A stretch of 64,000 nt of DNA from Eubacteriales bacterium (GTDB lineage: Bacteria > Bacillota > Clostridia > Lachnospirales > Lachnospiraceae). Numbering within the stretch: position 1 is the first letter of the stretch; the number at the start of each line of letters is the position of its first letter. Location: assembly GCA_030537195.1 (NCBI GenBank), contig JAUNOK010000006.1, positions 1-64,000 of the forward strand. The letters run 5' to 3'. Shown here one piece after another: positions 20,307 to 60,391 of this stretch. The notes under the pieces were generated by a model, which had not been told where the DNA came from, did no database searches, and saw only the letters and a program-made list of their open reading frames with translations. The position numbers and the translations under genes are program-made.

Positions 20307-20714
20307 CTATTTCTTAAATCCCGGATTATATGCATAGAAGTTCTTAGAGTCAAGCTTGCTCTGTATAATTGACAATGCCTCTCCGAATCTCTGGAAATGC
20401 ACAATCTCTCTTTCTCTTAAGAACTTCAGTGGCTCATAAACATCCGGATCATCACGACAGAGTCTTAACAGATTATCATAAGTGGTTCTCGCTTTCTGTT
20501 CTGCTGCCATATCCTCAACGATATCAGTTATGGCATCACCCTTTGACTGGAATTCACTTGCACAGAATGGCACGCCTCCTGCAGCCTGCGGCCATACGCC
20601 AACCGTATGGTCAACATAATAAGCCTCAAACGGAGTTCCTTTTATCTGATCAACTGTAAGGTTTCTTGTAAGCTGGTGAACCATTGTACTGACCATTTCG
20701 AGGTGACTGAGTTC
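20307..20714 (-). CDS. cotJC: cotJC 3' segment (gene split by prophage)
   Basis: This is the C-terminal two thirds of CotJC, a manganese-catalase-like protein of the spore coat. In frame from the junction it reads NELSHLEMVSTMVHQL and ends NPGFKK. The ExxH half of the metal site ends here (SHLE), and a later metal-ligand region is VHFQRFGEAL. It has no start or ribosome site of its own. Joined at the AGTTC core to the 5' segment at 60,195-60,391 it makes a continuous 199-codon frame. Expression as CotJC therefore needs prophage excision. Confidence 0.93.
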   Translation of the reverse strand, partial: ELSHLEMVSTMVHQLTRNLTVDQIKGTPFEAYYVDHTVGVWPQAAGGVPFCASEFQSKGDAITDIVEDMAAEQKARTTYDNLLRLCRDDPDVYEPLKFLREREIVHFQRFGEALSIIQSKLDSKNFYAYNPGFKK

Positions 20715-20739
20715 ATTAGCTCATGGTTGTTGGATATGA
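20705..20739. other. attL with attP right half-arm
   Basis: The core AGTTC (20710-20714) is followed seven bases later by the arm CATGGTTGTTGGATATGA (20722-20739). This arm is the inverted match of the arm at 60173-60189 next to attR. Confidence 0.85.
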
Positions 20740-20812
20740 ATTTAACTTTAATATGTAAAGAATCTCTTCCTATTTATATAGTTTAATATTAACCATGAAG
20801 GGGTAGTTTAAC

Positions 20813-21445
20813 CTATTCCTTTATGGTTAATTTATATGTTCTTCCTGATTTTTCTCTAATAATAACATTTTCTTTTTCCATATTATAAAGGTTAAATACA
20901 ATATATTCTTTAACATCATCATCAAAGTATTTATATATATCTTTCTGCAATATACCAGAATTATCATTTATTATTTCAAGCAATTTTTCTCTTAGCTTTG
21001 GAGCAATTATATTTTCAATATATATCTTTCGTTCATACTCTGACTGCAATTTATCTATGTTTTGAGTCAAGTTTTGTAGTTCATTATTTCTATCCTGAAT
21101 CCACATATCACTTACGACTATATTATTAAACCAAAATTCATAGCATTCCCCTTTTTCTTTACAAGCCTTTTGAGCATCATTCACATATAACATTAGACTC
21201 TTTAAAGTCGCATACTGCTTTTTAGGTTCTTCTTCTCTTGAATTCAACCATTCATTGAAAAAATATGAATACTCGCTTGCTATTTTATCCCTAAAATCAT
21301 CTTTTCTCGAAACCCATCCCCAAGGTAATTCACCATTTTCATTAAGTCTTGTCAAATCTTCCCCAAACCTATTCACTTCTGTGTTCTGTACCTGCTGATT
21401 GAAAGTATTGCTTTTCTTTTTACTGAATATATCGAATAATCCCAT
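20813..21445 (-). CDS. Prophage-end protein with C-terminal winged-helix-like domain
   Basis: A 210-aa protein starting MGLFDIFSKKK. It has an acidic, helical middle and coiled segment, and a C-terminal pattern LQKDIYKYF...YNMEKENVIIREKSGRTYKL that resembles a winged helix. It lies beyond the lysis genes, between their terminator and attL, and its AT content is higher than its neighbours. That placement suits a lysogenic-conversion gene expressed in the prophage state. Function unknown. Confidence 0.6.
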   Translation of the reverse strand: MGLFDIFSKKKSNTFNQQVQNTEVNRFGEDLTRLNENGELPWGWVSRKDDFRDKIASEYSYFFNEWLNSREEEPKKQYATLKSLMLYVNDAQKACKEKGECYEFWFNNIVVSDMWIQDRNNELQNLTQNIDKLQSEYERKIYIENIIAPKLREKLLEIINDNSGILQKDIYKYFDDDVKEYIVFNLYNMEKENVIIREKSGRTYKLTIKE

Positions 21446-21514
21446 ATATACACCCCCTTTTTGTGATTATATCACCATATTAGTTATTCTTGGTAGCATA
21501 AATTGATATTCAAT

Positions 21515-21545
21515 AAAAAGGAAGGCTCAACACCTTCCTTTTTTA
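21515..21545. terminator. Terminator ending the late operon
   Basis: AAAAAGGAAGG pairs with CCTTCCTTTTTT. It follows the endolysin gene and closes the late transcript on the minus strand. Confidence 0.85.
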
Positions 21546-21562
21546 CTATATTACCTGATAGT

Positions 21563-22681
21563 TTACACCCTTTCAATATTGCAGATATTAATTGCACATG
21601 TTACATCATAGTCTCCAATAGAACCATCATCATTCCAATCTTTTACTATACCAATAACAACTCTGTCTCCTTTAACTTCGATAACATCATATGTATCATA
21701 GTACATCACGAATGAACCGCCATCATATGTTGCATTAACAAGTACTCTTACCTTATCACCGACATTTATTGATGTATCAGATTCTGAGGGCTGATTGCCA
21801 TTACCTGCTGAACTAATGCATCCGTCATTGACCCATCCAGTTCCGTCATTAATAAGGTATGGATTAGCAGCCCCAGTGATAACTCTTGTGATTGTTCCAC
21901 TTGTGAATCCTGCGGAAGGTGTTAGTGGTTCATTTGACGTTGAAGATGCGTATATTCTGTCATATTCTACATAATCACCTTCATGATACATTGTATCTGT
22001 GCTTGTAGAATCTACGACCTCATCAGACCCTGTTGATGTATCTTCATTACCTGTATTGCCAATAAGCTGATCATATACTTCATCACGCATAATGTCATAA
22101 TCAACTCTTGTACCATCATCAAGATGATGGTCGCTTGATTCCTGTGACATAGCGAATTTATCATCACAGATTTCTCCATCATCATTCCAATGAGCTTCCC
22201 ATATAAGCGCACCATGTTCAATAAGCTCATCTACATTCATGTAAGTATTGAGCCAGCTATGACTAGCATAGATTCCTTTAGCCTTAATATCTGCCAGTTC
22301 ATCAAGCCAAACAACAGCTAATGCCTGTGTACTGTAATAATCAATACCATGTCTTTCCTTATATCCGTCAGCATCCTCTATATCAAGGAATACCCCTATA
22401 GGATTGCTCTTGTTATACCACTCTCTAATGTGTGCTGCTTCACTTCTTGACTGCTCATCAGAAGCTGCATACTGGTATAAATACAACGCATATGGTATAT
22501 TTCTAGCTTCACACTCATTTATGTATGTCTGCGCCATGGTGTCACACTGACCGCACTCGCTATCATCTGCGCTTAAATCACTTCCATATCCACAGCGAAT
22601 AATTACAAAATCATAATTATCCTTAATATAATCAAAATTAATATCCCCCTGATGGCTGCTTATATCTATTCCTTTTTTCAT
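21563..22681 (-). CDS. Endolysin, GH25 muramidase
   Basis: A 372-aa lysin. The N-terminal GH25 domain (residues ~1-205) has GIDISSHQGDI at the N-terminus and the catalytic pair FLDIED. A Ser/Thr-rich linker (~205-235) leads to a C-terminal SH3-like wall-binding region of about 130 residues with two similar halves (YVEYDRIYASS and KVRVLVNATYDGG). It has no signal peptide, so release depends on the adjacent holin. Confidence 0.92.
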   Translation of the reverse strand: MKKGIDISSHQGDINFDYIKDNYDFVIIRCGYGSDLSADDSECGQCDTMAQTYINECEARNIPYALYLYQYAASDEQSRSEAAHIREWYNKSNPIGVFLDIEDADGYKERHGIDYYSTQALAVVWLDELADIKAKGIYASHSWLNTYMNVDELIEHGALIWEAHWNDDGEICDDKFAMSQESSDHHLDDGTRVDYDIMRDEVYDQLIGNTGNEDTSTGSDEVVDSTSTDTMYHEGDYVEYDRIYASSTSNEPLTPSAGFTSGTITRVITGAANPYLINDGTGWVNDGCISSAGNGNQPSESDTSINVGDKVRVLVNATYDGGSFVMYYDTYDVIEVKGDRVVIGIVKDWNDDGSIGDYDVTCAINICNIERV

Positions 22682-23320: not shown

Positions 23321-23352
23321 AAAAAAGCACCTCAAAGCTATGAAGTGCTTTA
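23321..23352 (-). terminator. Terminator after tail endopeptidase gene
   Basis: AAAGCACTTCA pairs with TGAGGTGCTTT on the minus strand, followed by a T tract. The stem overlaps the last codons of the tail gene. Confidence 0.7.
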
Positions 23353-25557
23353 ATCAATTATTTTTTTGAATGTTAGATTGCCATTGGTTCTAGGCATAAA
23401 AGCAAATTTGCCAAGCTGCAAGCTATTCGTATATTCGCCATCTGTTACATACAGCTTTCTATTGCTAAAATATGCAACTTCTGTATTGTTCTGAAAAAAT
23501 GATATTCTGTCATTTGCAATTTTCAGTGTAAGTTCACTGCCTGCTTCTCCCAACACAATATTGCCATCAACAAACCTTATGTACTTGCTAATCTCACGAA
23601 ATCTTGTATCAGCATTGTTAGATACATCATCAATATTCTTAGTAAGATTATTAAATTGCATCTCAAATCCTTTTGCTGTATGTTCCAGAGATGAACTTAC
23701 TGCACCCACAAGATTATCTGTTGCATCTTTAGTGTAATAGCTTTCTGACATTGTCTGCTTTAAGCTTTTTTCAGATGTACTTATATCTGCTGTAAAACGC
23801 TGTTCAAGCTGTGTGATTGTACTCGACATGTCATTAACCACAACCCATGCTGAACCATTCCACCGCTTTAAAGTTGGTGGATTTACAGATGTATCTAACC
23901 ACATATAGGTTTTATCAGCTGGCTCAGTGTCACTTTGGATTGCTGCGTCCTTTCCACGCTCTCCTATCATGCCGACACAATAAGCAACACTTGAAGTATT
24001 ATCTGTATAGATTGTTTCTGTTCTCGTCCACAGATATTGCCCAGCACTTACAACAGGTATTGTTGTTAGCCATGTTCCTGAGGGAATAACGGTTCCGCTT
24101 GAAGATGCCTGATATGTAACCGTTGTTGAGCTGATACCTTTTCCATCTTTACCTGGCTGTCCTGGTTGTCCTGCCAGTCCATCTTCCCCTATTCTGCTTA
24201 TAGAATAACTGGTAGATGTCGTTTTATCTGTGTACGTTATAATTGTTCGAGTCCATAAATACTGCCCTGGTAATGTTTGTGGAATATCCGCGGACCATTC
24301 ACCTGTCGGCACATCTACACCAGACGTACTTGCCTGATACGTTATATCTGTTGTATCAATGCTTTTACTATTCAGCTTAATATTCGTAACTTCATTTCTG
24401 ACTGTTTTAACATACTGATTAAGCTGCTCCATCTGTGATAACTGCTTATCCGTTAATGTCTTATATGTTGTTCCTAATGTAAGCTTAGTGTTTTCAGGCT
24501 TAAGCAATTCCCGTGTGAGCTGCTTTACAATAAAATTTTGATTCTGAATAGAATGTGGCTTTGTGTTTACCTTGACATATCTGCCAATCCTGAAACTGTT
24601 TACATTTGCCACCTCTCCATCTATGGTTGCACCATTCAAGTCAGCAGCATTTACCGAAATAGAAGCGGTGAACTGTGCCATATTGTCAATGTATGCCTGT
24701 CCTTTGGTCTTAAGATTAGACGGAAGTGTTACATCATCCCAAGTGTTGGTTGTAAAGATATAACCATACTTATCCACGGCTTCTGCGTTATACACAAAAT
24801 CAACATTGTTATTAACATCCTTGATTGTTAATCTTTCACCAGTCTCATTGCCCTGCTCATCTTTAAGCTTATATCCAAGAGGAATAAGAGCTGTTGCAAA
24901 GTTTTCTACCTTAATGTTCTTTTCTAAATCAAGCAGATTCTTTCCAAACTCTATCACTTGATTACTCAACACTTCAAAATCCGCAAGGTAATCAATGTAA
25001 TTGCCATCTGCTTCATGGCGCACCCACAAATGACCGCCAAGATGGTCAATAAGCTTTGCATTTAACTCATCCCATGTACTTACATAGTCGCTATTAGACC
25101 TTACTATGTAATCATTCGGATCTGTTACAGTTATATTGCCGACCTTAAATTGCCTTGCTTCATCTACCTGTGCATTGTGGTTATTAATATACTGTGTAAA
25201 CAGCTCTGCAGGTGTTCCACTTTGCCCTTCAGCAGGAAAGGAATACGGTCTTTGAATAGAATCCAATAAAAAAGCAAGTTCCCCTTCACAAGAAACCTGC
25301 TTTTCATTGTAGAAACCTGTTTTTTCATCATAAACCCTGCCCCTGAACAATGGCTCTTTTATTCCATCTTCATACACAGTTATGATAGATTTCATTTTTT
25401 CTATGAAATTGTAATACGGATGGTCAGGATAGATGGTAAATGTGAAGGAACCCACCTTGTTATCCTCCTGACTCACCTTTGGATTGATAAGCTTAAGCTG
25501 TTCCAATGATGTATCTAATATCCGCTTATCATCACTATATGCGGTTATTCTCATCAC
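23350..25557 (-). CDS. Tail endopeptidase / receptor-side baseplate protein (Tal)
   Basis: A 735-aa prophage tail protein. The N-terminal ~370 residues resemble the Tal/gp18-like domain that closes the tail tip. Two ~60-residue repeats follow (TYQASTSGVDVPTGEW and TYQASSSGTVIPSGTW), separated by a short collagen-like GQPGQPGKDG. The C-terminal part is coiled. It directly follows the distal tail gene, overlapping it by four bases. The collagen-like and repeat region is a common spacer in tail fibres. Confidence 0.85.
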   Translation of the reverse strand: MMRITAYSDDKRILDTSLEQLKLINPKVSQEDNKVGSFTFTIYPDHPYYNFIEKMKSIITVYEDGIKEPLFRGRVYDEKTGFYNEKQVSCEGELAFLLDSIQRPYSFPAEGQSGTPAELFTQYINNHNAQVDEARQFKVGNITVTDPNDYIVRSNSDYVSTWDELNAKLIDHLGGHLWVRHEADGNYIDYLADFEVLSNQVIEFGKNLLDLEKNIKVENFATALIPLGYKLKDEQGNETGERLTIKDVNNNVDFVYNAEAVDKYGYIFTTNTWDDVTLPSNLKTKGQAYIDNMAQFTASISVNAADLNGATIDGEVANVNSFRIGRYVKVNTKPHSIQNQNFIVKQLTRELLKPENTKLTLGTTYKTLTDKQLSQMEQLNQYVKTVRNEVTNIKLNSKSIDTTDITYQASTSGVDVPTGEWSADIPQTLPGQYLWTRTIITYTDKTTSTSYSISRIGEDGLAGQPGQPGKDGKGISSTTVTYQASSSGTVIPSGTWLTTIPVVSAGQYLWTRTETIYTDNTSSVAYCVGMIGERGKDAAIQSDTEPADKTYMWLDTSVNPPTLKRWNGSAWVVVNDMSSTITQLEQRFTADISTSEKSLKQTMSESYYTKDATDNLVGAVSSSLEHTAKGFEMQFNNLTKNIDDVSNNADTRFREISKYIRFVDGNIVLGEAGSELTLKIANDRISFFQNNTEVAYFSNRKLYVTDGEYTNSLQLGKFAFMPRTNGNLTFKKIID

Positions 25558-26192
25558 AAGCCCCCTTCCTGATATGTGAAGGTGATATTGCCTGTTCCTG
25601 TTACCGTTACAGTATTATTTCCTTCTACAAGCTCCAATGTAGGGATTGTAAAAGTTCCTGCATTAACAATTGTTGATGTGCCGCCAAATGTTATTGTCAT
25701 TGAATCTGTTGTTGTAATGGAAGGAACTACCCTTCTCCTTGAATTAACAAGAGTAATAGATGCTGAACCATTAACCGCCTGTGTTACAACTGTCGGCAGC
25801 TCCTTGTACTTCCACGGTTCACATGTACATTCAATACTTATCTGACCAATGTTTTTATTTTTAGATAAAGCTGATACTTCCAGCCTTCCTACATAATAAT
25901 ATTCTGGATCATCATCAAGCACAATCTTCATTCTTTTTCCGTGGAGCGTATTCAATATACTTGAATAAAGTTCCAAAAAATCAGATTGATTCACTATTGT
26001 ATTAAAGCTGAATGACAAAGTCCTGCTTTTGTATTTAGGTTCACCAAAATACTCTGTATAATCAATCATTCCATGTGCACCATCAACATCAACATAATTG
26101 GTCTTAACCGTAGCACTTCCAATCTCTTTTTCTGTTAATATTAAATTAAAATCATCATAAGAATGATAACCACCAAATGTTACACCAATCAT
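25554..26192 (-). CDS. Distal tail protein (Dit)
   Basis: A 212-aa siphovirus tail protein with the typical start VTFGGYHSYDDFNLILTEKEIG and a C-terminal galectin-like beta domain. It forms the hexameric hub between tail tube and baseplate. Order after the tape measure gene and before Tal is canonical. Confidence 0.88.
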   Translation of the reverse strand: MIGVTFGGYHSYDDFNLILTEKEIGSATVKTNYVDVDGAHGMIDYTEYFGEPKYKSRTLSFSFNTIVNQSDFLELYSSILNTLHGKRMKIVLDDDPEYYYVGRLEVSALSKNKNIGQISIECTCEPWKYKELPTVVTQAVNGSASITLVNSRRRVVPSITTTDSMTITFGGTSTIVNAGTFTIPTLELVEGNNTVTVTGTGNITFTYQEGGL

Positions 26193-26193
26193 A

Positions 26194-29100
26194 TTATTGT
26201 CCTCTCATGCTTGCCGCGCTGATATCTCCAAGTGCCGAATCCATTGCAGGTGCTAATTCACCAACAAGAACATCTCCATTCAAATAGATTTTGTCATTTC
26301 CCCTGCTTGCAATCATATCCATAAGCTGATTAAGCTTGTCTATAATGGCAGCAGTACTGAAAGAAGCATTGATTGTAGGTGCAGGATTATGTCTGTAATT
26401 ATTCGTATTAACAGAACTGCTTCCTGATACCACCATTTTATCAATCAACTTTTCAACAGGTTCTATTGCATCCTCCTCATTTTCTTCAACACCGTTTCCG
26501 ATACCTGGAGGAATAAATGCACCAACTTCTTTAGCAAAGGCCTTTGATGGTGAATGTATATCTGCTTCATCCTTTGCTGCAGATATACTCTTCTTTATAA
26601 GTGAACGTATCTTTGTAAACAGCGACCCTGACTTTTTATCAACACCTGTGCTGATACCATCAACCATATTTTCACCAACAGATGATGTATCCGCTTCATC
26701 CTTTGCAGATTTAACGGCAAGCTTTGATAAATCAGACATTTTTTCCATCAGTGAATTTTGCTTGCTTTCAACACCATCTTCATAGCTTAATACAGCACTT
26801 GAGCCTGCTTTTGCATATTCTTCTGCTGCTTTTTTAGCATATTCCTTGGCATCATTCAGTCTTGTTTCAATGGACTTCTTCTGCTCTTCCGTTGCAGAAT
26901 TATAATAACTTCTAAGAAGTACATAATAATCCTGTGCATCATTCTTCTGCTGTTCAAGAGTCTCCTTCTGCTTCTCTGCACTCTCTCCTGCAACATCCGC
27001 TGCTGTCTTATAGGATTTTCCTAATTTATCCATATATTCAACCGCTTCTGTTACATTACCTTGTAAAATCAAAGTTGAAGCATTCTCATATGTGCTTATA
27101 TCATCATAATATTCAAATATTTTGCTCTTGGTTTCATCATAATCGCCTTGAAGCTTCTTTAAATTTTCTGATTCTGAATCATAAGCCTGTTTCGCTGCAT
27201 TCATTTTATCAAGGTACGCTTTTTGCTCCCAAGCAGATAAATTTGCAGCAGCTTCACTAAATTCAGCCTTAGCTTTATCATACTCAAGCTCTTTTTCACT
27301 AACCTTATTCTGCTGTTCAATGAGTTCTCTCTTTTGCTTATATGCGCTTTCTTCCAACTCAGTTAGATTCAACAATGCATTTTTATACTTCTCTTCCTTT
27401 GCTGACAAAAGAATTTCTGCTTTCTTGGCTTCAATAGTGTTATAAACAGATTCCGTTAACTCATTGTAATTATCAATCTGGTTGCCTGTCATGGTATATT
27501 CAGTGCCTAAAGCTTCATTTAACTCATTCAGAATAAATTCTGCCCTTGCCTTATTAGCATCCGTGACATTACCTTCTTTATCACACAAAAGCTGTAATTC
27601 TTTCCATAATCTTTCAGTGTTAGCAACTTCTACTAAACTTGATTCCGCCTTTTCATCAATAGCGGTTTGCTGATCACGCAAAGCTTGAATATTTTCATGT
27701 CTAGCTTCTGACTCTTCATTTATCTTTTTAGTTCGTTCTGCTGTTTCATCTGTTTCATTTTTAGCAGCAATTGTAACTGCACCAATTGCAATTGCTAATG
27801 CTCCAAGCGCAGTAACAACTAAACCGATAGGATTAGCAGCCATAACAGCATTAAATGCTCCCATTGCTGTCGTAGATGTCTTAAGTGCTGTTGATACAGT
27901 TGTAACAACAGACATTCCCTTTAAAGCAGCAACTGTAAATCCAACTGCGATTGTAAGACCTTCAAATTTATCAATACAGAATCCCAGTATTTTAACAGCT
28001 CCTGGAAGTGCTGTATCTATCAGCCAGTCAAGAATAGGTTCAATTTTAGTCAAACCCTTCTCTATTGTTGGCTGTAGCTTATCCACCTGCTTCTGTATCT
28101 TAGGAAGGCTCTTTTCTGCCTTAGTAAGCAACTTCTCTACGGTAGGCATTAACTTCTGTCCGAGTACTGTAAACATATTAGCAATCTGGTTCTTTATCTT
28201 CTTAAATGACGCAGCAGATGTAGAAGCCATTTTCTTATAAGCTTCTTCTGTAGCGCCTGCGCTGTTCTTCATTGCATCTATGTTTCTTGTAACACCTTCA
28301 ATGTTATTAGCAAGTACCTGTGCAGCCATACCACCTTCAGAAGAACTAAACATACCAATAATACTGTCGCCTGTCTGCTCGCTGTATTGTCCTAAGATAC
28401 CAATAACATCAAGAACGGTGTAGCCTTCTGCCCTAAGCTCTTGAAAGCTCTTTTTCTCGCCTAATACACTTTCTGTAGCATTTTCAAGCTGTGTATATAA
28501 TGTATCACTTCCAGTTCCCAACTCCTTAATCATACTGTTAAGGTAAGTTGTTGTTTCTGCTGTAGCAATACCATTAGCGGTCATTGTCGCATAGTATCCG
28601 CACAATTCATCTAAAGATACACCAAATGTATTGGCGGCAGGAATAACTCTACCCATAGCTGCTGCCAAATCTCCAACAGTGGTTTTACCTTTATTCTGTG
28701 TCATTATAAGTTTATCTGATATGCTCTCTGCATCTGCAGCACTCATACCGTAAGCATTAATGGCTGTTGTCATAATATCAACCGCTGTTGCTGTATCCGT
28801 GAAACCACCCTTGGCAAGCTTCATGGCTTTAGTTGCAAAATCAATTGCATCAGCCTGATCCACACTGGCAGAGATAGCCTGATAAATAGATTCACAGAGT
28901 TCATCTGTAGAAACATTCATTTCAGATGAAACCTGCATTATTCTCTTTTTATATGCTTCAACATCAAGTGCATTAGTATCCAGAAGTGTACTAACCTTCG
29001 CAAAGCTTGTCTCAAAGGCTGCTGCCGACTTAATAGCAAGTGTTCCAATTGCTGTAGCTGCAGAAGCAACTGTTGTAGCAATTTTGATTCCGAACTGTGC

Positions 29101-29229: not shown

Positions 29230-29257
29230 ATATAAAGCCTCCTCTCTTTTTTTGCAT

Positions 29258-29296
29258 AAAAAAAACACCCTCATAGGTGCCTTAACATGTGTTTTT
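29258..29296. terminator. Hairpin before tape measure gene
   Basis: AAAAACAC pairs with GTGTTTTT around a long loop. It lies between the tail chaperone genes and the tape measure start and may modulate transcript levels. Confidence 0.45.
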
Positions 29297-29298
29297 AG

Positions 29299-29631
29299 TT
29301 AGAGTTTAAAATTTTTCAGTATGCTTTTCGCATTATCATAAGCTGTTTTAACTTCTGCATCCGACATAGACAGATTACTAATACCCTGATGTTGCTGTGG
29401 TCTTTGCTCTGCTACATGTGAGCCATGAATAATCTCATTTTTCCATGCCGCAAAGGTCTCTCTTGAATTGCTGGAAAGATAAGCTAACCATAATTTATTA
29501 TCTTCTTCCTTTTCAGCTTCTTCATTTTTTCGCTTAACAACATGCTTTACAAAATCATATAATCTGCCTGTCTTAAGCATCCTGTTAATCAACTCATTAG
29601 GGCTTGCATACTTCTCATACATCAGGCCCAT
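29299..29631 (-). CDS. Tail assembly chaperone, gpGT-like C-terminal part
   Basis: A 110-aa protein at the position of the lambda T part, just before the tape measure gene. It is charged and helical, with MYEKYASPNELINRMLKTGRLYDFV. In many phages this is made as a -1 frameshift fusion with the preceding chaperone. The -1 frame is open only after a TGA shortly before the upstream stop. No canonical slippery heptamer was seen, so separate translation is possible. Confidence 0.7.
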   Translation of the reverse strand: MGLMYEKYASPNELINRMLKTGRLYDFVKHVVKRKNEEAEKEEDNKLWLAYLSSNSRETFAAWKNEIIHGSHVAEQRPQQHQGISNLSMSDAEVKTAYDNAKSILKNFKL

Positions 29632-29645
29632 AAACTCAACATAGC

Positions 29646-30080: not shown

Positions 30081-30095
30081 GTTTTATCTCCTCTC

Positions 30096-50643: not shown

Positions 50644-50677
50644 TCTGGCCAGAGTTCCAAGCTCCTTTCTGATATTT

Positions 50678-51253: not shown

Positions 51254-51261
51254 ATATCCTC

Positions 51262-51759
51262 CTACTCCCTGTTGTTCTCTAGCAGGGCATTATAAAATTC
51301 AGGGTCCTTAAGCGGACGCTGTTCGTAATTTGCAAATTTTTTTGCGCGCGCAGGCGCTATATTATTTTGTTTTTGTTTATGTTTATATATGGCTACGGTT
51401 TCTCCTACGGATTGTGCTTCGGTTTGTACTACGCTTTCTCCTACGCTTTGTCCTACGGATTTGAAAGTGCAAATTTTATATTTATTAGGGCTTCCTTTCT
51501 TCCCTCTTTGGAATTCTATAAGGCCTGCATCTATTAATCTGTTCCTGTTCTCGACTAACGTAGCCTCTCTTGACATCTGACAACGAGACATTACTCGCTG
51601 GTTATCTACTTGTATCCACTCGCACCACCCAGCCATGTTATTAATACTAAGTAATTTGTAGTACAATAACTGCGCTGAGCCCGGCAAGTAATGACTTTCG
51701 AGCCACCTTTCAAACCCGTTCAGTTGTTTTATGTAGTCGATTCTCTGTTCTGTCCTCAC
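51262..51759 (-). CDS. Replication-initiation-like helix-turn-helix protein
   Basis: A 165-aa protein with an N-terminal winged-helix fold (YYKLLSINNMAGWCEWIQVDNQRVMSR) typical of phage DnaD/helix-turn-helix replication proteins. A short imperfect repeat follows (SVGQSVGESV and QSVGETV), then a basic tail. The GTG start overlaps the rusA stop. Probably acts at the phage origin, but no origin was identified. Confidence 0.65.
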   Translation of the reverse strand: MRTEQRIDYIKQLNGFERWLESHYLPGSAQLLYYKLLSINNMAGWCEWIQVDNQRVMSRCQMSREATLVENRNRLIDAGLIEFQRGKKGSPNKYKICTFKSVGQSVGESVVQTEAQSVGETVAIYKHKQKQNNIAPARAKKFANYEQRPLKDPEFYNALLENNRE

Positions 51760-52142
51760 TGCACCACCTCTTCCAATACCACCTCTATTCGTGGATTATG
51801 CTTGTCTATGAAGAAGTGGTCTTCAAAACCTACTATATTGTTCCAGCCATCATTATCCAGAACCTTGCACTTAACAAGTGCGTCCTGTATAAACTTATGT
51901 GCAACACCTGATATATTATCAAGGTCACGCTTTCTATTAGGCTCATAGAAAGTGTATTTAATCCTCACTGGATTATTTATATGAGTACGTTTTAATTTAA
52001 GCCTTATCGCGTTAGATATAATCATCTGATACTGCTGTTTCATGTCATTCCCGTCACAATGTCCATTATGAAAACATCTTTCCGCTTTAAGGTATTCATT
52101 CAATCCCGGCAGTGTGCCCTTGATTGTAAATGCATAGAGCAT
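51756..52142 (-). CDS. rusA: RusA-family Holliday junction resolvase
   Basis: A 128-aa resolvase with the motif RDLDNISGVAHKFIQDALV and DNDGWNNI, the conserved acidic cluster of RusA. It cuts four-way junctions made during phage recombination or replication. Confidence 0.9.
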   Translation of the reverse strand: MLYAFTIKGTLPGLNEYLKAERCFHNGHCDGNDMKQQYQMIISNAIRLKLKRTHINNPVRIKYTFYEPNRKRDLDNISGVAHKFIQDALVKCKVLDNDGWNNIVGFEDHFFIDKHNPRIEVVLEEVVQ

Positions 52143-52226
52143 CTTTCTCCTTTCCGCCTCCCGGCAAGTATGTAACCGAGAGGCTGGTTTTATTCTGCTG
52201 TGCGAAAAATGTGATATATTCAGCAG

Positions 52227-52544
52227 TTATAAATAAGACCTTCCATATCTTTCTCTGAAAACTTCTCTAGCCGGATCATCTTCATTTCCATAAAGACTTC
52301 TGTAGTATTCCTTTTCCCATGCAAGCTGACCTGCTATCTTACTCAGCTTTTCAGCAACGCTATTGTCATGTATCTGCCTTGTACCGCCTGCCATATTATG
52401 CTCAGCATCACATACAGGTATCTTTATTCCATCTTCTTCTGCAAGTTCCCTGATTCCTATACCGAACAGCAGATGATGTACTGTATGTGTAGGCTTACCG
52501 CAAAAGATACAGAATCCGTTATATTTCGTTAAAACACTTTTCAT
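52227..52544 (-). CDS. HNH-like zinc protein
   Basis: About 105 aa starting MKSVLTKYNGFCIFCGK. There is a CxxC pair, THTVHHLLFG and a later CDAEHN, an HNH-like arrangement found in phage recombination clusters. Nuclease activity cannot be judged here. Start at 52544 after GGAGGTG. Confidence 0.65.
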   Translation of the reverse strand: MKSVLTKYNGFCIFCGKPTHTVHHLLFGIGIRELAEEDGIKIPVCDAEHNMAGGTRQIHDNSVAEKLSKIAGQLAWEKEYYRSLYGNEDDPAREVFRERYGRSYL

Positions 52545-52545
52545 A

Positions 52546-53349
52546 CTACACCTCCCCAATCAAATCACTTGACCAGATAGGAGTTTTAAGTATCTTTGTA
52601 TGCTTGCAGTAATCACAGTGTTCGCACCTTACCGGATCTATGTCATTATTCTTTAATGCCAGTATCTTAGGTACATTATTCTCAACTTCCGCAAGAGCTT
52701 CATCAAGAAGAGACTGTTCACATGCTATAACCTGTATATCCGGCTCTTTCTCCTTTGATACCGCTGCTATAAAGAACGGCAGTTTCTTTCCTGTATTAAT
52801 TTCCACAACCTTCTGATAGACAGCTCCCTGAAGGTAATATCCCCACTCATGCAGAAAATTCATGTTGCCTGCATCTGCATGATAGAATGTCTTAGTTATG
52901 CTCTGGCATGTCTTAAGGTCAACAATGCACTTATCATTAATATAACTGTCAATCTTAATTTTCCATTTAGCACCAAACATATCAGCGGTCATTATTACCT
53001 GCTTTTCTCCGCTCATATATGCCATAAATAACTCATCTCGTTCACATCTGTTAATCATTTCATTGGCCTTAATATATTTAGCCATAAGTGAACCGTCTTT
53101 CTTAAACATACATGGATGCTGTGTCTTAAATACATCAAGCGTTCCCTCAAAATGTGCATCAACATAAGAACCAACCATAAGGGCATCTGAATCTTCCATA
53201 TTCTCAACCCATTCTTCATTGAGTTTAGCCATTGCATAGGCTTCACAACCAGGACGACCAAGTGAACCCACAAAATTCTTATACTGAGATACACTTAAAT
53301 ACTCTCTGTCCGCTTCTGTACTGTAATAATTTTCACTTGTTAATATCAT
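52546..53349 (-). CDS. PD-(D/E)XK exonuclease, DUF3799/RecE-like
   Basis: A 267-aa nuclease. YLSVSQYKNF is near the N-terminus, and the nuclease core KIKIDSYINDKCIVDLKTC supplies the D...DxK. A C-terminal Cys cluster (CEHCDYCK) could hold an iron-sulfur or zinc site. It would resect phage DNA ends to feed the annealing protein encoded next. Confidence 0.85.
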   Translation of the reverse strand: MILTSENYYSTEADREYLSVSQYKNFVGSLGRPGCEAYAMAKLNEEWVENMEDSDALMVGSYVDAHFEGTLDVFKTQHPCMFKKDGSLMAKYIKANEMINRCERDELFMAYMSGEKQVIMTADMFGAKWKIKIDSYINDKCIVDLKTCQSITKTFYHADAGNMNFLHEWGYYLQGAVYQKVVEINTGKKLPFFIAAVSKEKEPDIQVIACEQSLLDEALAEVENNVPKILALKNNDIDPVRCEHCDYCKHTKILKTPIWSSDLIGEV

Positions 53350-54146
53350 TCAGCAACACCTCCCATAGGATTAGGAACTTCCTCTTCTACCGGGAAATAA
53401 TCTTCCGCTTTAGCCTGTCCATCTTTAAGGGCTTTATATACTCCCTTAAGGTTAATAAATTCATCTTCCCCAAAATCTGCACAATTACGCTCTGCATACT
53501 TCTCTATCTGTTCTCTTGTTACCTTAAATTCTACCTTGAATGCATTAATAAGCTTGGTTACTCTTTCATTAATAGGCTCTTTGCCTATTCCTTTTCTAAC
53601 TGTTTCTTTACACTCTCCAACAGCCATATCAACAACATCTCCTGGTATAACTCCAAGAATGCAGGCTCTCATTCGTCTTGCGCCAAAATTAGCTGTTGCC
53701 TCATAAATATCCCTGCTGTCTGTAAGCTGATATGTACCCTTCTTAGTATCTCTCTTATGCTCTACTGTAAATATCTTAGTAACTCTCGTATTTGATTCCA
53801 AATCCCAAGCATAAGCCATCATCTCTGATGAGCCATTCTTCTGTTCAAGTTCAATAACTCCGTAATCAATATTACCCCAGTTCTGAGCAAGGGCTTCTGC
53901 AAGCCTTATAGATGGTCCCATAACTGTCTGTCCACCTCTTGGATAAGAATATATAGCCTGCTCTGCTAAAGTTGCCCTCTGGCACGTTCTCTTGATTCTC
54001 TCCATTGCGTCATATTCATCTCTTGGGAACTTCTTAGCCATAACTATTGCCCCCTGAACTTCCTGTGCCTGTCTGCTTATCATCATCTCTGTCTGTGATG
54101 TTTTAGAAACAGCCATCTGCTGTCCCATTGGTATCATGCTGTCCAT
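53346..54146 (-). CDS. Phage recombination protein, putative single-strand annealing type
   Basis: A 266-aa protein with SYPRGGQTVMGPSIRLAEALAQNWGNIDYG and ANFGARRMRACILG. It is regularly found between the PD-(D/E)XK nuclease and an SMC-like ATPase in clostridial phages. The gene order suggests a RecT-like annealing partner, but the family is not proved by sequence alone. Confidence 0.65.
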   Translation of the reverse strand: MDSMIPMGQQMAVSKTSQTEMMISRQAQEVQGAIVMAKKFPRDEYDAMERIKRTCQRATLAEQAIYSYPRGGQTVMGPSIRLAEALAQNWGNIDYGVIELEQKNGSSEMMAYAWDLESNTRVTKIFTVEHKRDTKKGTYQLTDSRDIYEATANFGARRMRACILGVIPGDVVDMAVGECKETVRKGIGKEPINERVTKLINAFKVEFKVTREQIEKYAERNCADFGEDEFINLKGVYKALKDGQAKAEDYFPVEEEVPNPMGGVAE

Positions 54147-54161
54147 TATTAATTAAACCTC

Positions 54162-55592
54162 CTATAATTCTGTAACTATTAAATCTGTATCATCTGTTGT
54201 TCTTGTTGCTATAAACTGCAGTCCCTTGTCCTTACATTTCTTATAAAGCTGATTTCTAAGTGTTGTAGAAAGCTTCTCCACACCATCAATAAGCAGAAGC
54301 TGTATTCCATTCGGCTTCTGCAGAGCTACATCAATGCATAAATCCAGCTTTTCACCTTCTGATAAATTACTGATTGGAAGTCCGTTAATAAGAGGTATAC
54401 CATTTTCAACTGAAAGTCCTTCAATTGGTATGCTGCATTCTTCCAGTATTTCACCCGGTAATGTTCGTGCTTTCTCAATCTTATCTGTGAGAATCTGTGA
54501 CTGCTCTGCCAGCTCATCTACCTGATTCTGAAGCATTATCATTCTGTCATACTCATTAATGTGAGCTTTCATATCTTCAATAGCTTGTGCCTGTTTACTC
54601 AGTTCAGATGTATCTCTTATATCCCTATCAACATACTCATTGTACTCAGCACATTGTGCGTTATATTCAGCAACGGAGGCCTCATAAGTTTTATCTGCCA
54701 GAGCAAGCTTATCTGCCTTATTAGATGCAAGACTGCTCTGTTCCTGCCTTAAACTTACAATCTGTCCTTCAAGTCTTGTAATATCCTCTGTTATCTGCTT
54801 ATCACGAGAACTGAACTCTCTTTCAATAGCAGCTTTTTCAATCTCTCTATCTGCCTCAAACTTACGGATTTTATTGTTCTTGTTCTCAATTACCTGCTTG
54901 GCACGCTCCACAAGCTGATTATCACGCTGAATACTTTCTATCTGTCTATAGATATCTCCGGCAGATGCATTTCTCCACTTCTCAGCGTCATAACCTTCTG
55001 GAAGTGTCCTGCCTATATCTTCTATAAACGCTATCTTATTTCTTCTGTCTCTGTCTATATTCCTTCTGTTCTGGTAATACTCTCCATTTTCACTCTGAAT
55101 GTCATTAAGAACTGCAAGAATATTCTGGTCATAATTAACCCATGCCGGTATCTCTCCAAACCACTGCTTAATAGTGTTCATATCCCAGTCATACTGAATC
55201 ATATCCAGAATGATTGCATTCTGCTGTTTCTTATCCATAGCCATAAACTCTATTGGATTAAGCTGCAAAGGAGTAAATATCTCCTTAAGAAAAGCTTCAG
55301 GGCTTCCTATTTCACGCCCATTCTGCTTGATAGATTTGTAATCCGCTCTATTAATACGGCTCTTTCTATCAATAGATAATCCGCTGTCCATCTCAATAAG
55401 AATTTCTCCTTCAACAGCTCCGCGTCTTACAATTACATCTCTGCCGGATTTATTAGTTAATGCATATCTGATAGCGTCAAGTACTGATGATTTACCTACA
55501 CCATTTGAACCTGAAAGCTCTATGCTTTCACCATTCATGTTAAATTCCCTAATACCCAGTATGTCTCGAATTTGAATCTTTGTTGTTCTCAT
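54162..55592 (-). CDS. SMC/RecF-like ATPase
   Basis: About 476 aa. Walker A LSGSNGVGKSS near the N-terminus, a long coiled coil (about residues 200-360), the signature NLSEGEKLDL, and Walker B LLLIDGVEKLS are all present. This is the layout of phage Rad50/SbcC-like ATPases that work with a nuclease. Start chosen at ATG 55592 after AAGGAAATA; the frame is open further upstream. Confidence 0.88.
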   Translation of the reverse strand: MRTTKIQIRDILGIREFNMNGESIELSGSNGVGKSSVLDAIRYALTNKSGRDVIVRRGAVEGEILIEMDSGLSIDRKSRINRADYKSIKQNGREIGSPEAFLKEIFTPLQLNPIEFMAMDKKQQNAIILDMIQYDWDMNTIKQWFGEIPAWVNYDQNILAVLNDIQSENGEYYQNRRNIDRDRRNKIAFIEDIGRTLPEGYDAEKWRNASAGDIYRQIESIQRDNQLVERAKQVIENKNNKIRKFEADREIEKAAIEREFSSRDKQITEDITRLEGQIVSLRQEQSSLASNKADKLALADKTYEASVAEYNAQCAEYNEYVDRDIRDTSELSKQAQAIEDMKAHINEYDRMIMLQNQVDELAEQSQILTDKIEKARTLPGEILEECSIPIEGLSVENGIPLINGLPISNLSEGEKLDLCIDVALQKPNGIQLLLIDGVEKLSTTLRNQLYKKCKDKGLQFIATRTTDDTDLIVTEL

Positions 55593-55746
55593 TATTTCCT
55601 TCAAAATTAAATACCATTTGCCCGTTTCGGGACTCCCTAAAGTTACCCATATACTGTCTGCGTCTTTCTTCCTCCTTATCCTGGCAGTCACATCTTTCTC
55701 CAGGGTCTAAAAGAGCACCACAGTAACTACATTCATAATTCCACAT
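55549..55746 (-). CDS. 65-aa zinc-knuckle protein
   Basis: MWNYECSYCGALLDPGERCDC has CxxC and CxC pairs of a zinc ribbon followed by a charged tail. GGAG precedes the ATG. It overlaps the SMC-like ATPase start by 44 bases. Role unknown. Confidence 0.6.
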   Translation of the reverse strand: MWNYECSYCGALLDPGERCDCQDKEEERRRQYMGNFRESRNGQMVFNFEGNNENNKDSNSRHTGY

Positions 55747-56322: not shown

Positions 56323-56323
56323 T

Positions 56324-56912: not shown

Positions 56913-56941
56913 ATTTTAAATCAAATTTAATTTGATGTCAA
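56913..56941 (-). promoter_or_regulatory. Early promoter with operator copy 2
   Basis: Minus-strand TTGACA (56936-56941) and TAAAAT (56913-56918) have a 17-bp spacer, and the palindrome ATCAAATTTAATTTGAT (56920-56936) fills that spacer. Binding of the repressor here would block the early operon. A third, degenerate half-site ATCAAATT lies at 56949-56956. Confidence 0.75.
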
Positions 56942-56971
56942 TACTAAAATCAAATTATTTTTGTTTTTTTG

Positions 56972-57000
56972 TTGACTTATATAAAATTAAAATGTATTAT
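56972..57000 (+). promoter_or_regulatory. Repressor gene promoter
   Basis: TTGACT (56972-56977) and TATTAT (56995-57000) are separated by 17 bp, just upstream of the repressor start. Confidence 0.7.
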
Positions 57001-57024
57001 TCTTTATATAAGGAGGTTTTAGAT

Positions 57025-57411
57025 ATGAGTGAAGAAGCACAAAAAAGAATATTTACAAGAAATTTAAATTCATATATCGAAGCAAGTGGAAAAACACAAT
57101 TAGAAATTGCTAAAAGTATAGGTGTTTCGCCTCAAACTTTTAATACATGGTGCAAGGGTATTGCTATCCCTAGAATGGGTAAAGTACAAGCATTGGCTGA
57201 TTATTTCCACATAAATAAATCTGACTTAATAGAAGATAAGTCTAATTCTAACGAAGAGGAAACATACTACCTTGATGATGCTGCTAGAGATATGGCACAG
57301 TTTATGTATGAGAATCCTGAATACAAAGTTCTCTTTGACGCTTCTCGCAAGGTTAAGAAAGAAGATATCGACTTTGTTAAACAGATGATAGATAGAATGT
57401 CAAACAAATAA
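57025..57411 (+). CDS. Prophage repressor, XRE family
   Basis: A 128-aa protein with an N-terminal helix-turn-helix (KTQLEIAKSIGVSPQTFNTWCKGIAIPRMGKV) and a short C-terminal part, YLDDAARDMAQFMYENPEY. It has no LexA-like peptidase, so induction may depend on the nearby ImmA-like peptidase. AAGGAGG before the ATG at 57025 fixes the start; the frame opens earlier. Confidence 0.88.
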   Translation: MSEEAQKRIFTRNLNSYIEASGKTQLEIAKSIGVSPQTFNTWCKGIAIPRMGKVQALADYFHINKSDLIEDKSNSNEEETYYLDDAARDMAQFMYENPEYKVLFDASRKVKKEDIDFVKQMIDRMSNK

Positions 57412-57496: not shown

Positions 57497-57685
57497 ATGC
57501 CAATGACACCTAAAGAAATGATTAAACTTCTTAAACAGAATGGTTTTAAAGAGGTTAGTCAGAACGGCTCACATATTAAAATGGTCAATGAATATACTAA
57601 TAAACAAACCATAGTTCCTTATCATGGAAAAGCTCTTAAAAAAGGGCTGGAACAAGCAATACTTAAACAGGCGGGGCTTAAATAG
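57497..57685 (+). CDS. hicA: HicA toxin (mRNA interferase)
   Basis: A 62-aa double-stranded-RNA-binding-like toxin with the catalytic histidine in NGSHIKM and VPYHGKALKKGL. HicA cleaves mRNA and is neutralised by HicB. It precedes hicB by 26 bases. AAAGGAG upstream. Confidence 0.93.
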   Translation: MPMTPKEMIKLLKQNGFKEVSQNGSHIKMVNEYTNKQTIVPYHGKALKKGLEQAILKQAGLK

Positions 57686-57711: not shown

Positions 57712-58110
57712 ATGAACAGATTATTTTATCCAGCATTATTTCACAAAGCTGAAGAAGGCGGTTTCTGGATTTCATTTCCAGATATTCCTGAATGTTTAAC
57801 AGAAGGCGACAATATGGAAGAAGCATATAATATGGCTATTGATGCCCTTGGCTTATGTCTTTCAGATATGGAAAAAAACAACACTCCATTCCCAACTCCA
57901 TCTCCTGTTGACAAAATTACAGTTGATGATGATGCAGTATTAGTTGTTATAGAATTTGATATGCTTGCATATAAGAAGCGTACCAGTTCGCGCGCCGTTA
58001 AAAAAACTCTTACTATTCCAGAATGGCTTAATGAACAGGCTATTCAGCTTAACATTAACTTCTCACAAGTACTACAAGATGCATTAATGGAAAAGGTTGG
58101 GAATAAATAA
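57712..58110 (+). CDS. hicB: HicB antitoxin
   Basis: A 132-aa protein with the partial RNase H-like fold FHKAEEGGFWISFPDIPECLTEGDNMEEAYNMA and a C-terminal ribbon-helix-helix part (TIPEWLNEQAIQLNINFSQVLQDAL). It binds HicA and its own promoter. The pair may stabilise the prophage. Confidence 0.93.
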   Translation: MNRLFYPALFHKAEEGGFWISFPDIPECLTEGDNMEEAYNMAIDALGLCLSDMEKNNTPFPTPSPVDKITVDDDAVLVVIEFDMLAYKKRTSSRAVKKTLTIPEWLNEQAIQLNINFSQVLQDALMEKVGNK

Positions 58111-58532: not shown

Positions 58533-58552
58533 GAGTTGTACTGGTGCAACTC
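58533..58552 (+). promoter_or_regulatory. 20-bp imperfect palindrome upstream of integrase
   Basis: GAGTTGTACTGGTGCAACTC pairs at 8 of 10 positions and lies 30 bases before the integrase start, a likely operator controlling it. Confidence 0.5.
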
Positions 58553-58581
58553 GCATATATTTTACAGAAAGGATGGTTAAT

Positions 58582-60147
58582 ATGGCTGAATTTGATAACG
58601 TAATAATATATTTAAGAAAATCTCGTTCTGATGATCCAATGCAAACTGTAGAGGATGTACTTGCAAAACACGAATCTATCTTACAGGACTATTCTATTAA
58701 GCAATGGGGAAAGCCTGTTCCTGAAAATCGTATTTTTAGAGAGGTCGTTTCGGGGGAAACAATACAAGATAGGCCTGTGATGCAACAGATAATGAAATTA
58801 TTAGAGACCGGTTTTATATCCGGCGTTCTTATAATCGAACCACAAAGATTATCTCGTGGCGATTTACAGGATTGTGGCCGTATTATTAATTCTTTTAGAT
58901 ATACTAACACAGTCGTGATTACGCCACCTAAGACGTACGATCTGTCAGATGAATATGATAGAAAATTTTTCGAGATGGAACTGACAAGGGGTAATGATTA
59001 TCTTGAATACACAAAGAAGATTCTTAATCGAGGTAGAATTGCTTCTATTAAGGCCGGTAATTATATTGGTAACATTGCGCCTTACGGATATAGAAAAGTT
59101 GTAATTGGAACTGGAAAAGACAAGTACCATACATTAGATATAGAGCCTAAGGAAGCTGAAGCTATCCGTATAATGTTCGATTTATATGTGAACAAAGATT
59201 ATGGCTTTACTAATATAGCACATTTTCTTGATAGCGCCGGATATAAGCCAAGAAATTCTGACAACTGGAGTCCTGCTGCCATTTCATCTATGCTGAATAA
59301 TGAAATATATATTGGAAGAGTTGTTTGGAACAGAAGGCAAACTGTTAAAAAAATGCAAGACGGCATGATTGTTCGTACACGCCCTCGTCACAGTGATTAC
59401 ATAAGTGTTCCTGGTAAACACCCAGCAATTATATCTGATGAGCTTTTTTATGCAGCTAAAAAGAAAAGAGGAAGAACACCTAAGATTAAGAAATTTACAG
59501 AACTTACAAATCCGCTTGCTGGTCTTCTATTCTGTGGCAGATGCGGTTTTGCTATATCCATGAAGAAATACACAGACAAGCGAAGTAAGACCGGACATGA
59601 AACTATTACAATGCTTTGCAATAATCAGTCTAATTGCCATACAAAATCTGTGATGTATAGTCTTGTTATTGCAAAGGTAAAACTATCTCTGCAACAGGCT
59701 ATAGATGATTTTGAGGTACATGTTAATAACAATGATGATTCTGAACAGATTTTACAGCAAAATATAATTAACAATCTAACTGAAGAACTTGAACATTTAA
59801 AAGAAAAAGATATCCGACAAAAAGATGCATACGAAGATGGCATTTATTCCAAGGAGGAATTCTTAAAAAGAAATGCTAAGCTCACAGAACAGATAAGCAT
59901 TACTCAGGAAAAGTTAAATAATGCCCTGCTTGAAGAACCACGCGTCTGTGACTACGAAGAGAAAATTGTGCGTTTCCGTGATTGCCTTAATGCTCTGGAT
60001 GATGATAATGTATCTGCTGCCGTTAAAAACACTCTTTTAAAAGCTTGTATTGATAAGATTCTATACTACAATGACAGCCCTTCTCTCCCAGGCATAGGAC
60101 GATATGTAGACAATCCTTTCAGATTAGAAATTTTCCTGAAGCTGTAA
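58582..60147 (+). CDS. Large serine recombinase (phage integrase)
   Basis: A 521-aa recombinase. The N-terminal resolvase domain has YLRKSRSDD, whose first Ser is the expected nucleophile, and IEPQRLSRGD. The recombinase domain has APYGYRK, followed by a zinc ribbon (CGRCGF...CNNQSNC) and a coiled coil (about residues 385-460). It catalyses integration and, with a directionality factor, excision. It is adjacent to attR, and excision would restore cotJC. ATG 58582, nine bases after AAAGG, is preferred over 58573. Confidence 0.95.
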   Translation: MAEFDNVIIYLRKSRSDDPMQTVEDVLAKHESILQDYSIKQWGKPVPENRIFREVVSGETIQDRPVMQQIMKLLETGFISGVLIIEPQRLSRGDLQDCGRIINSFRYTNTVVITPPKTYDLSDEYDRKFFEMELTRGNDYLEYTKKILNRGRIASIKAGNYIGNIAPYGYRKVVIGTGKDKYHTLDIEPKEAEAIRIMFDLYVNKDYGFTNIAHFLDSAGYKPRNSDNWSPAAISSMLNNEIYIGRVVWNRRQTVKKMQDGMIVRTRPRHSDYISVPGKHPAIISDELFYAAKKKRGRTPKIKKFTELTNPLAGLLFCGRCGFAISMKKYTDKRSKTGHETITMLCNNQSNCHTKSVMYSLVIAKVKLSLQQAIDDFEVHVNNNDDSEQILQQNIINNLTEELEHLKEKDIRQKDAYEDGIYSKEEFLKRNAKLTEQISITQEKLNNALLEEPRVCDYEEKIVRFRDCLNALDDDNVSAAVKNTLLKACIDKILYYNDSPSLPGIGRYVDNPFRLEIFLKL

Positions 60148-60162
60148 ACCCGCAGTTTCAGG
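60135..60162 (+). terminator. Hairpin at the integrase end
   Basis: CCTGAAGCTG pairs with CAGTTTCAGG (one G-U pair), overlapping the stop codon; a weak T-rich stretch follows. Confidence 0.55.
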
Positions 60163-60172
60163 GGATTTCTTA

Positions 60173-60199
60173 TCATATACAACAACATGGCGTAAGTTC
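60173..60199. other. attR with attP left half-arm
   Basis: The arm TCATATACAACAACATG (60173-60189) is five bases from the core AGTTC (60195-60199). It mirrors the arm at 20722-20739. Confidence 0.85.
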
Positions 60200-60391
60200 T
60201 TCCGTGCCTATATCAGTAAGCAGTCCGGCAACTTCTCTGTACGGCATGGCATATCTCTGTGAAAGATATCTCATGGATGCACCCAGCTCGCCGTCTGGTC
60301 CACCATACTGTGAGATAATCATCGCTGCCAGTGTAGGATTACAATTCTTTATATTGATTGGGTACTGAAGTCTCTTCTCATAATTCCACAT
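60173..60391 (-). CDS. cotJC: cotJC 5' segment (gene split by prophage)
   Basis: Starts MWNYEKRLQYPINIKNCNP and runs through QYGGPDGELGASMRYL (first metal ligand region) to DIGTEEL, after which phage sequence adds TPCCCI and a stop. Only 66 CotJC residues are encoded before the core. GGGAGG precedes the ATG. The split is between the E and the H of the ExxH metal motif. Without excision the product is a short, probably inactive peptide. Confidence 0.93.
   Translation of the reverse strand: MWNYEKRLQYPINIKNCNPTLAAMIISQYGGPDGELGASMRYLSQRYAMPYREVAGLLTDIGTEELTPCCCI

Follow-up and report, generated by a model that had tools for sequence, protein, structure and literature searches.

A 39.5-kb prophage interrupts cotJC

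We analysed a 64,000-nucleotide stretch of DNA from a Eubacteriales bacterium of the Lachnospiraceae (positions 1 to 64,000 of contig JAUNOK010000006.1, assembly GCA_030537195.1; hereafter the window), in which the spore-coat gene cotJC is interrupted by a 39,485-bp prophage at window positions 20,710–60,199. The 5′ part of cotJC, comprising codons 1–65 and two bases of codon 66 with the recombination core included, lies at 60,195–60,391, and the 3′ part runs through to the stop codon at 20,307–20,714, both on the minus strand. The Pfam family Mn_catalase (PF05067) matches the two pieces at complementary stretches of its profile, positions 1–68 for the 5′ part and 64–197 for the 3′ part (E 2.9e-19 and 2.5e-23), and cotJB, the upstream neighbour, follows at 60,393–60,671 on the minus strand (Pfam CotJB PF12652, E 4.6e-26). 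Comparison of words shared between the two breakpoints identified AGTTC (GAACT in the cotJC sense) as the sole word of at least five bases sitting at both, at 60,195–60,199 in the right attachment site (attR) and 20,710–20,714 in the left (attL); four further shared 5-mers in the flanks are all off register. An initial annotation of this DNA had placed both cotJC parts here around an AGTTC core, where we find them, and had claimed that deletion of the intervening 39,485 bp yields an open 600-bp gene. Removal at AGTTC reproduces this exactly, giving 600 bp and 199 stop-free codons in which DIGTEEL joins SHLEMV. The core takes in the Glu65 codon and the first two bases of Leu66; a cut between the glutamate and histidine of an ExxH metal site, as first described, thus holds in that the crossover falls ahead of His68, and its position is refined to at or just after Glu65.

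Apart from these two pieces, the source genome (2.57 Mb, 99.84% complete) contains no third match to PF05067, and the second intact cotJC that would have made this copy dispensable was not found in it. With complementary profile matches and no third match, the split exceeds chance. The genome also encodes SpoIVA and carries uninterrupted SigK/SigE-like frames that score below the curated cut-off of the SigK model.

The prophage recombinase and its attachment site

The large serine recombinase that the initial annotation noted at attR is intact. Its 524-aa reading frame lies at 58,573–60,147 on the plus strand, 47 bp from the attR core, carries the Resolvase (PF00239) and Recombinase (PF07508) domains and matches the phrog_95 integrase family (1.4e-88); elsewhere in the source genome we found a single weak homologue, at 24% identity. 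Joining the two element ends gives a phage attachment site (attP) that reads, by eye, as an imperfect palindrome about the core, ATATACAACAACATG ... CATGGTTGTTGGATAT, the form expected of a serine integrase site. The integrase of Roseburia phage Jekyll (LR596902.1) is 49.7% identical to the recombinase of the window. The Jekyll record ends in CATATCCAACA...GATGAATT and starts with GAATTGGG...TGTTGGATATG, and if this linear record represents a cut circle, its ends would form a palindromic attP with arms like those of the window phage and a GAATT core. The two phages are alike in integrase and attP arms, and Jekyll is known here from the phage record alone and not from a host integration locus.

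Split cotJC genes recur among relatives

The initial annotation proposed a search for uninterrupted cotJC in other Lachnospiraceae, and this search recovered both intact and split genes. Within the host genus, probably Lachnospira, PF05067 is found in 18 of 22 genomes. Eleven hold a full-length cotJC, two of these (G009 and G011) with an extra partial piece; four hold the gene only as complementary pieces (G000, G014, G016 and G019, the last in three); G020 and G021 retain a 3′ piece alone, and G007 holds one piece, located at the edge of a contig. The family sample comprised 298 genomes, each at least 90% complete, of which 190 contain PF05067. We re-searched the 67 of these 190 with the weakest best match and found cotJC in multiple pieces at recurring spots, without a full-length copy, in 52, single or unclear pieces in 11 and a full-length gene in four. 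All 52 split-cotJC genomes, the source genome included, encode SpoIVA; among them G183 lacks the middle stretch of the gene and G101 lacks the start, at a contig edge. A class-wide draw contained PF05067 in 238 of 392 genomes, 227 of them outside the family by our own count, and re-search of 48 weak-match genomes outside the family, which left aside a dozen others, revealed at least two non-adjacent pieces at the same spots in 32. These census counts are manual tallies, in which pieces on different contigs are presumed to come from one locus. Split cotJC is real and wider than the single-genome observation suggested.

Some cotJC genes are in three or four pieces. In G439, from another family of the same order, the gene lies in four (L166, L168, L167 and L169), with breaks at the spots designated A, B2 and C below. 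Separately, locus L122 (G069:C68) has two cotJC 3′ pieces about 3 kb apart on one contig, each of which can be rejoined to a single 5′ piece, an arrangement that is perhaps duplicated or cassette-like.

In-frame rejoining of split genes

At the breaks tested, 49 of the 52 split family genomes have pieces that join without loss of frame. This includes every same-contig split (28 of 28, G239, G251 and G310 among them), all 18 cross-contig family cases tested and the three-piece genes of G068, G114 and G236, which rejoin cleanly; G014 and G016 of the host genus do likewise. Beyond the 52, the three-piece genes of G019 and G422 rejoin and the four-piece gene of G439 comes out one codon short. Six multiply split genes fit at every break (G310, G236, G114, G068, G019 and G422). 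Four genomes (G100, G239, G250 and G310) are cut once more near the end of the gene, at spot D; G310 rejoins cleanly there, in G239 and G250 the best chain of the join script is not clean at this final join, and by eye the two sides share a 13-base word in G239 and an 11-base word in G250, in the same frame. A search for the last piece in G100 and for the middle piece in G183 found neither, and the best script chains for G101 and G191 are not clean. Cores in the first set of same-contig joins are 2 to 14 bases long; the script takes cores of at least two bases, and seven of 46 rejoined rows have just two.

We aligned these 46 rows, representing 43 family genomes (one of them entered twice, with alternative joins) together with G014 and G016 and leaving out G239, G251, G310 and the three-piece genes, to the rejoined CotJC of the window. 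The breaks neither add nor remove a residue in any row. Gaps occur only at residues 150–154, a natural one-residue length difference, and at residue 177 in G100.

Pairs of genomes that share an element permit comparison of the split pieces themselves. In the best same-genus pair, G029 and G301, the two pieces, 202 codons together, differ by 21 synonymous and 0 nonsynonymous changes. The ratio of nonsynonymous to synonymous divergence (dN/dS) is 0.06 for the 3′ piece of G014/G021 and 0.04 for the 5′ piece of L015/L016; synonymous sites are saturated in the pair L022/L024, and the divergence of the window gene from three intact Lachnospira genes reflects mostly time before the insertion. We considered dN/dS as proof of selection in the split state and set it aside as suggestive only; the values are consistent with such selection, short of proof.

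Five break spots lie near metal ligands

The breaks fall at five spots. Spot A lies at codons 27–31 (QYGG/PDGE), spot B1 at codons 58–61 (TDI/GTEE, core like TAGGTACAGAAG), spot B2, the one used in the window, at codons 63–66 (GTE/EL, core like GAACT) and spot C at codons 133–135 (EDMA/AEQK, core like GCAGCAGA). Spot D, at about codon 173 (HFQRFGE/A), separates the last part of cotJC (RFGE[AS]LRIVQD...) from the rest on the same contig in G310 (L153, ~1,998), G239 (L157, ~16,096) and G250 (L158, ~11,867), and corresponds to the lost C-terminus in G100. Counting from an alignment to the Lactobacillus plantarum Mn-catalase 1JKU, CotJC residues Glu35, Glu65, His68, Glu136 and His170 stand opposite 1JKU residues 35, 66, 69, 148 and 181. 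In 1JKU the glutamates are metal ligands. His69 and His181 are listed active-site residues of that enzyme (PMC11796326; here and below, statements on cited papers refer to the portions of them consulted). Every break spot is at most about eight codons from one of these ligands, and the simplest reason is that ligand codons are among the most conserved DNA of the gene and would hence make a durable bacterial attachment site (attB). All five ligand residues are preserved in each of the 46 rejoined rows.

Recombinase lineages at the break spots and in sleC

A profile built from the window recombinase detects a serine recombinase in all 28 same-contig cases, often right by the junction. We built a tree of 63 recombinases (62 different rows, two genomes appearing under two names) and the Jekyll integrase, with spot labels assigned manually, 11 rows labelled B2 from piece ends only and spot D outside the tree. 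All 17 spot A rows form one clade, as do all 11 spot C rows, and 11 of 12 spot B1 rows share a clade. All B2 rows lie with Jekyll and the odd B1 row, G023, beyond a fully supported branch (100*); the 14-base core of G023 spans both B1 and B2.

Because the tree rows were chosen for their location at cotJC, we also gathered homologues by sequence alone. Every genome-collection homologue of the window recombinase at 39–64% identity (17 of 17, L011–L027) has a cotJC piece in its flank, and none at 31–38% identity does (0 of 8, L028–L035). One of the 17, L013, is from the cultured strain Eubacterium ramulus ATCC 29099, where a spot B2 recombinase adjoins the 3′ piece of cotJC. For spot C, a cotJC piece flanks 12 of 14 loci at 70% identity or more, the exceptions being L213, an inner copy of the G241 element, and L212, near a contig end; below 52% identity, none of the 16 loci examined has one. 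Among 30 loci of spot A relatives, examined out of 47 matches listed and including the query's own locus, 16 lie by cotJC (the match at L205 being weak), 11 by sleC, one by an M23 peptidase gene and two by neither. The sleC loci are L184, L185, L186, L189, L191, L194, L197, L201, L202, L203 and L207. Their assignment to sleC comes from one 5′ piece, which matches PDB 9h68, the pre-pro-form of a spore cortex-lytic enzyme (E 2.2e-89), and from peptidoglycan-binding domains in 3′ pieces; in L201 and L202 the recombinase is flanked by both pieces. On the evidence of these flanks, sleC is a second spore gene recurrently hit by relatives of the spot A recombinase.

At L187 (G251:C32), a recombinase of the spot A type adjoins the broken M23 peptidase gene, possibly another spore gene. 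The spot C recombinase at L096:3628-5193 carries a DUF4368 domain, which has been linked to multi-target serine recombinases (PMC10083194); despite this domain, close relatives of L096, sharing at least 70% identity, sit mostly at a single cotJC codon.

Small inserts in cotJC

The gap between cotJC pieces is below 15 kb in 18 of the 28 same-contig cases, too small for a usual tailed phage, and reaches a minimum of 1.6 kb in G311. In four small elements Pfam names passenger genes: an LD-carboxypeptidase, LrgA with LrgB, a SulP permease and HicB antitoxins. Suzuki et al. argued that the need for rejoining keeps small elements in sporulation genes in place, and that nearly all known ones hit mother-cell-specific genes (PMC6957869). 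The cotJC inserts agree with this argument.

Gene content of the window prophage

Structural, packaging, lysis, regulation and integration genes are all present between the two cores (Pfam and PHROGs matches). Behind the recombinase gene lie a HicB-like antitoxin (57,712–58,110, plus strand; PF15919, E 4.4e-13) with a short HicA-like frame just upstream of it, recognised by eye at about 57,497–57,685, and a phage repressor-like regulator (56,932–57,411, plus strand; phrog_2967 and others, transcription regulation). The remaining features are on the minus strand. Replication and recombination genes (a helicase, a DnaD-like loader, an exonuclease and a weak SbcC-like match, by PHROGs) occupy 48,088–55,691, followed by the large and small terminase subunits (44,088–46,244; PHROGs), portal and head-morphogenesis genes (41,034–44,061; phrog_64 4.2e-86 and phrog_595 5.5e-56) and a tail protein gene (38,781–40,646; phrog_372 3.9e-78). 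Major capsid and scaffold proteins are encoded at 32,655–34,442 (PF25209, PF06810), tail genes (major tail, tape-measure-like minor tail, distal tail and tail fibre; PHROGs and Pfam) at 23,350–30,869 and a glycosyl hydrolase 25 endolysin at 21,563–22,681 (PF01183; phrog_291).

A diversity-generating retroelement occupies 35,054–38,763. Its reverse transcriptase lies at 35,054–36,346 (PF00078, E 1.9e-15; phrog_1423), and a template repeat (36,460–36,557) is 83% identical to a variable repeat (36,645–36,742) at the 3′ end of a 706-aa gene (36,643–38,763), with all 17 mismatches between the repeats falling at template adenines. Judged from a subset of reading frames, with holin outside the search, the 39.5-kb element looks like a whole temperate phage and not a remnant, and may form particles.

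Just outside attR, past cotJB, nested inverted repeats at 60,868–61,376 (about 500 bp; arms of 24–44 nt, 82–97% complementary) form a long imperfect hairpin that is perhaps a small non-autonomous mobile element.

Discussion

From the evidence assembled here we think it probable that the 39.5-kb prophage, likely self-inserted through its own recombinase, is excised in the sporulating mother cell and so restores cotJC. A temperate phage would have entered the sole cotJC of the genome by means of its large serine recombinase. Excision would need a phage-encoded directionality factor and would be triggered in the mother cell through this factor or the recombinase, one of the two being under sporulation control, and precise recombination at the core would rebuild cotJC exactly. 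Because only the doomed mother-cell chromosome would be rearranged, the spore would retain the prophage. In vegetative cells the same sites would serve ordinary phage induction, as for SPbeta at spsM. That the same gene is cut at a few recurring spots across relatives suggests that the inserts are likely removed purposely during sporulation.

The arrangement resembles several described systems. SPbeta in spsM of Bacillus subtilis (Abe 2014, PMC4191935) is likewise a temperate phage with a serine recombinase that splits a mother-cell spore-envelope gene and allows in-frame rejoining; it differs in gene and host class, in that sporulation-specific excision is demonstrated there and predicted for cotJC, and in that several lineages have entered cotJC, at five spots. 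Precise gene restoration by a serine recombinase next to one junction is shared with skin in sigK of B. subtilis and Clostridioides difficile, a prophage-like element in a regulator gene, whereas cotJC encodes a coat enzyme (PMC5025042); skin sits at different places in sigK in the two species (PMC6957869). The elements gin in gerE, yin in yabG, vfbin in spoVFB and vrin in spoVR are small or prophage-like and resemble the small cotJC inserts, but have other targets, and gin requires GirC and GirX (PMC5595907, PMC10747680, PMC4191935); the accounts consulted of these four describe no target hit at multiple spots or present as three or four fragments. In C. difficile, prophage phi027 also adjoins a cotJC homologue, but this gene is described as next to, or downstream of, attR and not as split in frame and restored by excision, and other cotJC paralogues are present (PMC11222575, PMC12122855). 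The interrupted sporulation genes named in these sources are sigK, spsM, spoVFB, spoVR, gerE and yabG (PMC10747680, PMC4191935, PMC5595907), and, in keeping with the initial annotation, we found no description of cotJC as an excision-restored site in the portions of open-licence literature consulted. Of the skin-like logic that the annotation proposed, the anatomy is confirmed in the split single-copy sporulation gene, its exact rejoining and the adjacent serine recombinase, and the relatives strengthen the reading considerably; we found no sigma-E-like promoter at the window recombinase, and excision in the mother cell under sporulation control stays a prediction.

Upstream sequences bear on the proposed sporulation control. 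The cotJABC genes of B. subtilis are expressed in the mother cell under sigma-E, which has the −10 consensus CATACAMT. Across 74 upstream regions, SigE patterns with at most three mismatches occur in 19% (8% on the reverse strand, 11% after shuffling) and SigK patterns with at most two mismatches in 69% (50% and 64%), and SigG and SigA patterns in these regions are not clearly over control. Only the exact octamer stands out: CATACAMT precedes five of 45 dereplicated recombinases (shuffled mean 0.29, maximum 2 in 200; reverse strand 0), all five of them at cotJC, among 45 that are not all at this gene.

Several observations weigh against programmed excision of these inserts. The octamer test was chosen after the broader sigma scan had been seen, and 40 of the 45 recombinases lack the octamer. 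The window recombinase has no good sigma-E-like promoter, its best candidate carrying four mismatches, although this neither establishes nor excludes sporulation control, since in C. difficile the skin recombinase is constitutive and control rests on a directionality factor under sigma-E/mother-cell control (PMC5025042); no such factor was recognised on reading the lists of open reading frames, to which the search was confined. Five same-contig elements have short recombinase frames, of 278 (G151), 344 (G311), 355 (G287), 399 (G281) and 409 (G125) codons. The join test is also lenient: with cores of two bases accepted, the joins show open, complementary pieces rather than proven attachment sites. 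In three single- or two-contig assemblies the pieces lie 157 kb apart (G344; L160, L161), 674 kb apart (G609; L162, L163) or on opposite strands (G689; L164, L165), which would call for a very large element or for rearrangement following insertion. Adjacent, frameshift-like pieces in G048, G369, G503, G518 and G553 suggest that a broken cotJC is tolerated at times, an intact copy accompanies the split gene in G122, G146 and G256, and B. subtilis reportedly does not need cotJC for gross spore formation (PMC12122855). The dN/dS values are weak evidence of selection while split, since they leave the time of insertion undated, and in G029/G301 the recombinase is less diverged at synonymous sites (dS 0.08) than cotJC (dS 0.14–0.23), so that the element is perhaps younger than the host split.

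Ordinary attB use is the main rival explanation: temperate phages and small integrative elements would favour conserved ligand codons in a gene whose loss is cheap, CotJC would be absent in lysogeny and excision would come only with induction. The complete appearance of the window phage, the existence of Jekyll as an annotated Roseburia phage with a related integrase and similar attP arms, the position of all break spots beside metal ligands, the intact second copies in three genomes and the frequent targeting of conserved genes by serine integrases in common (PMC10083194) all agree with it. Phage induction is nevertheless unlikely to maintain the 18 of 28 same-contig inserts below 15 kb, among which the four with named passengers carry host-like or toxin-antitoxin genes; moreover, the pieces still rejoin in nearly all split family genomes, three-piece genes remain rejoinable, and the relatives of the spot A recombinase occupy a second spore gene, sleC, and not scattered conserved genes. 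We consider ordinary attB use rather unlikely. Still further down we place a dying gene, whose interruptions would be recent or neutral and whose pieces would have yet to decay. Four genus genomes lack any PF05067 match, and the frameshift-like copies, truncated recombinases and rearranged genomes are of the kind such decay would leave, but the intact ligand residues in every rejoined row, the few or no nonsynonymous changes in element-sharing pairs and the fit at every break of six multiply split genes make it very improbable.

For the wider set of genomes, we lean towards a reading in which a large share of Clostridia keep germ-line cotJC only as two to four pieces, which every mother cell would put together afresh through one site-specific excision or several. 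Different metal-ligand codons of this gene would have been colonised independently by at least four recombinase lineages, with relatives of one in sleC, and mother-cell genes would provide a shared docking ground for phages and small elements, harmless to growing cells and not lost from the spore.

If excision is confirmed, programmed DNA rearrangement during sporulation would be common in gut Clostridia, beyond the few described cases in Bacillus, Geobacillus and Clostridium, and such rearrangement would make heavy use of a single small coat gene. For annotation there is already a warning, as cotJC appears broken in 52 of the 190 family genomes with the gene family and yet may function. On the same reading, such phages would reside by a simple rule, in conserved codons that belong to genes needed only in a cell about to die. 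The recombinases would come as a set whose natural target sites lie close together, and a connection of lysogeny with spore quality in transmissible gut bacteria could be tested directly.

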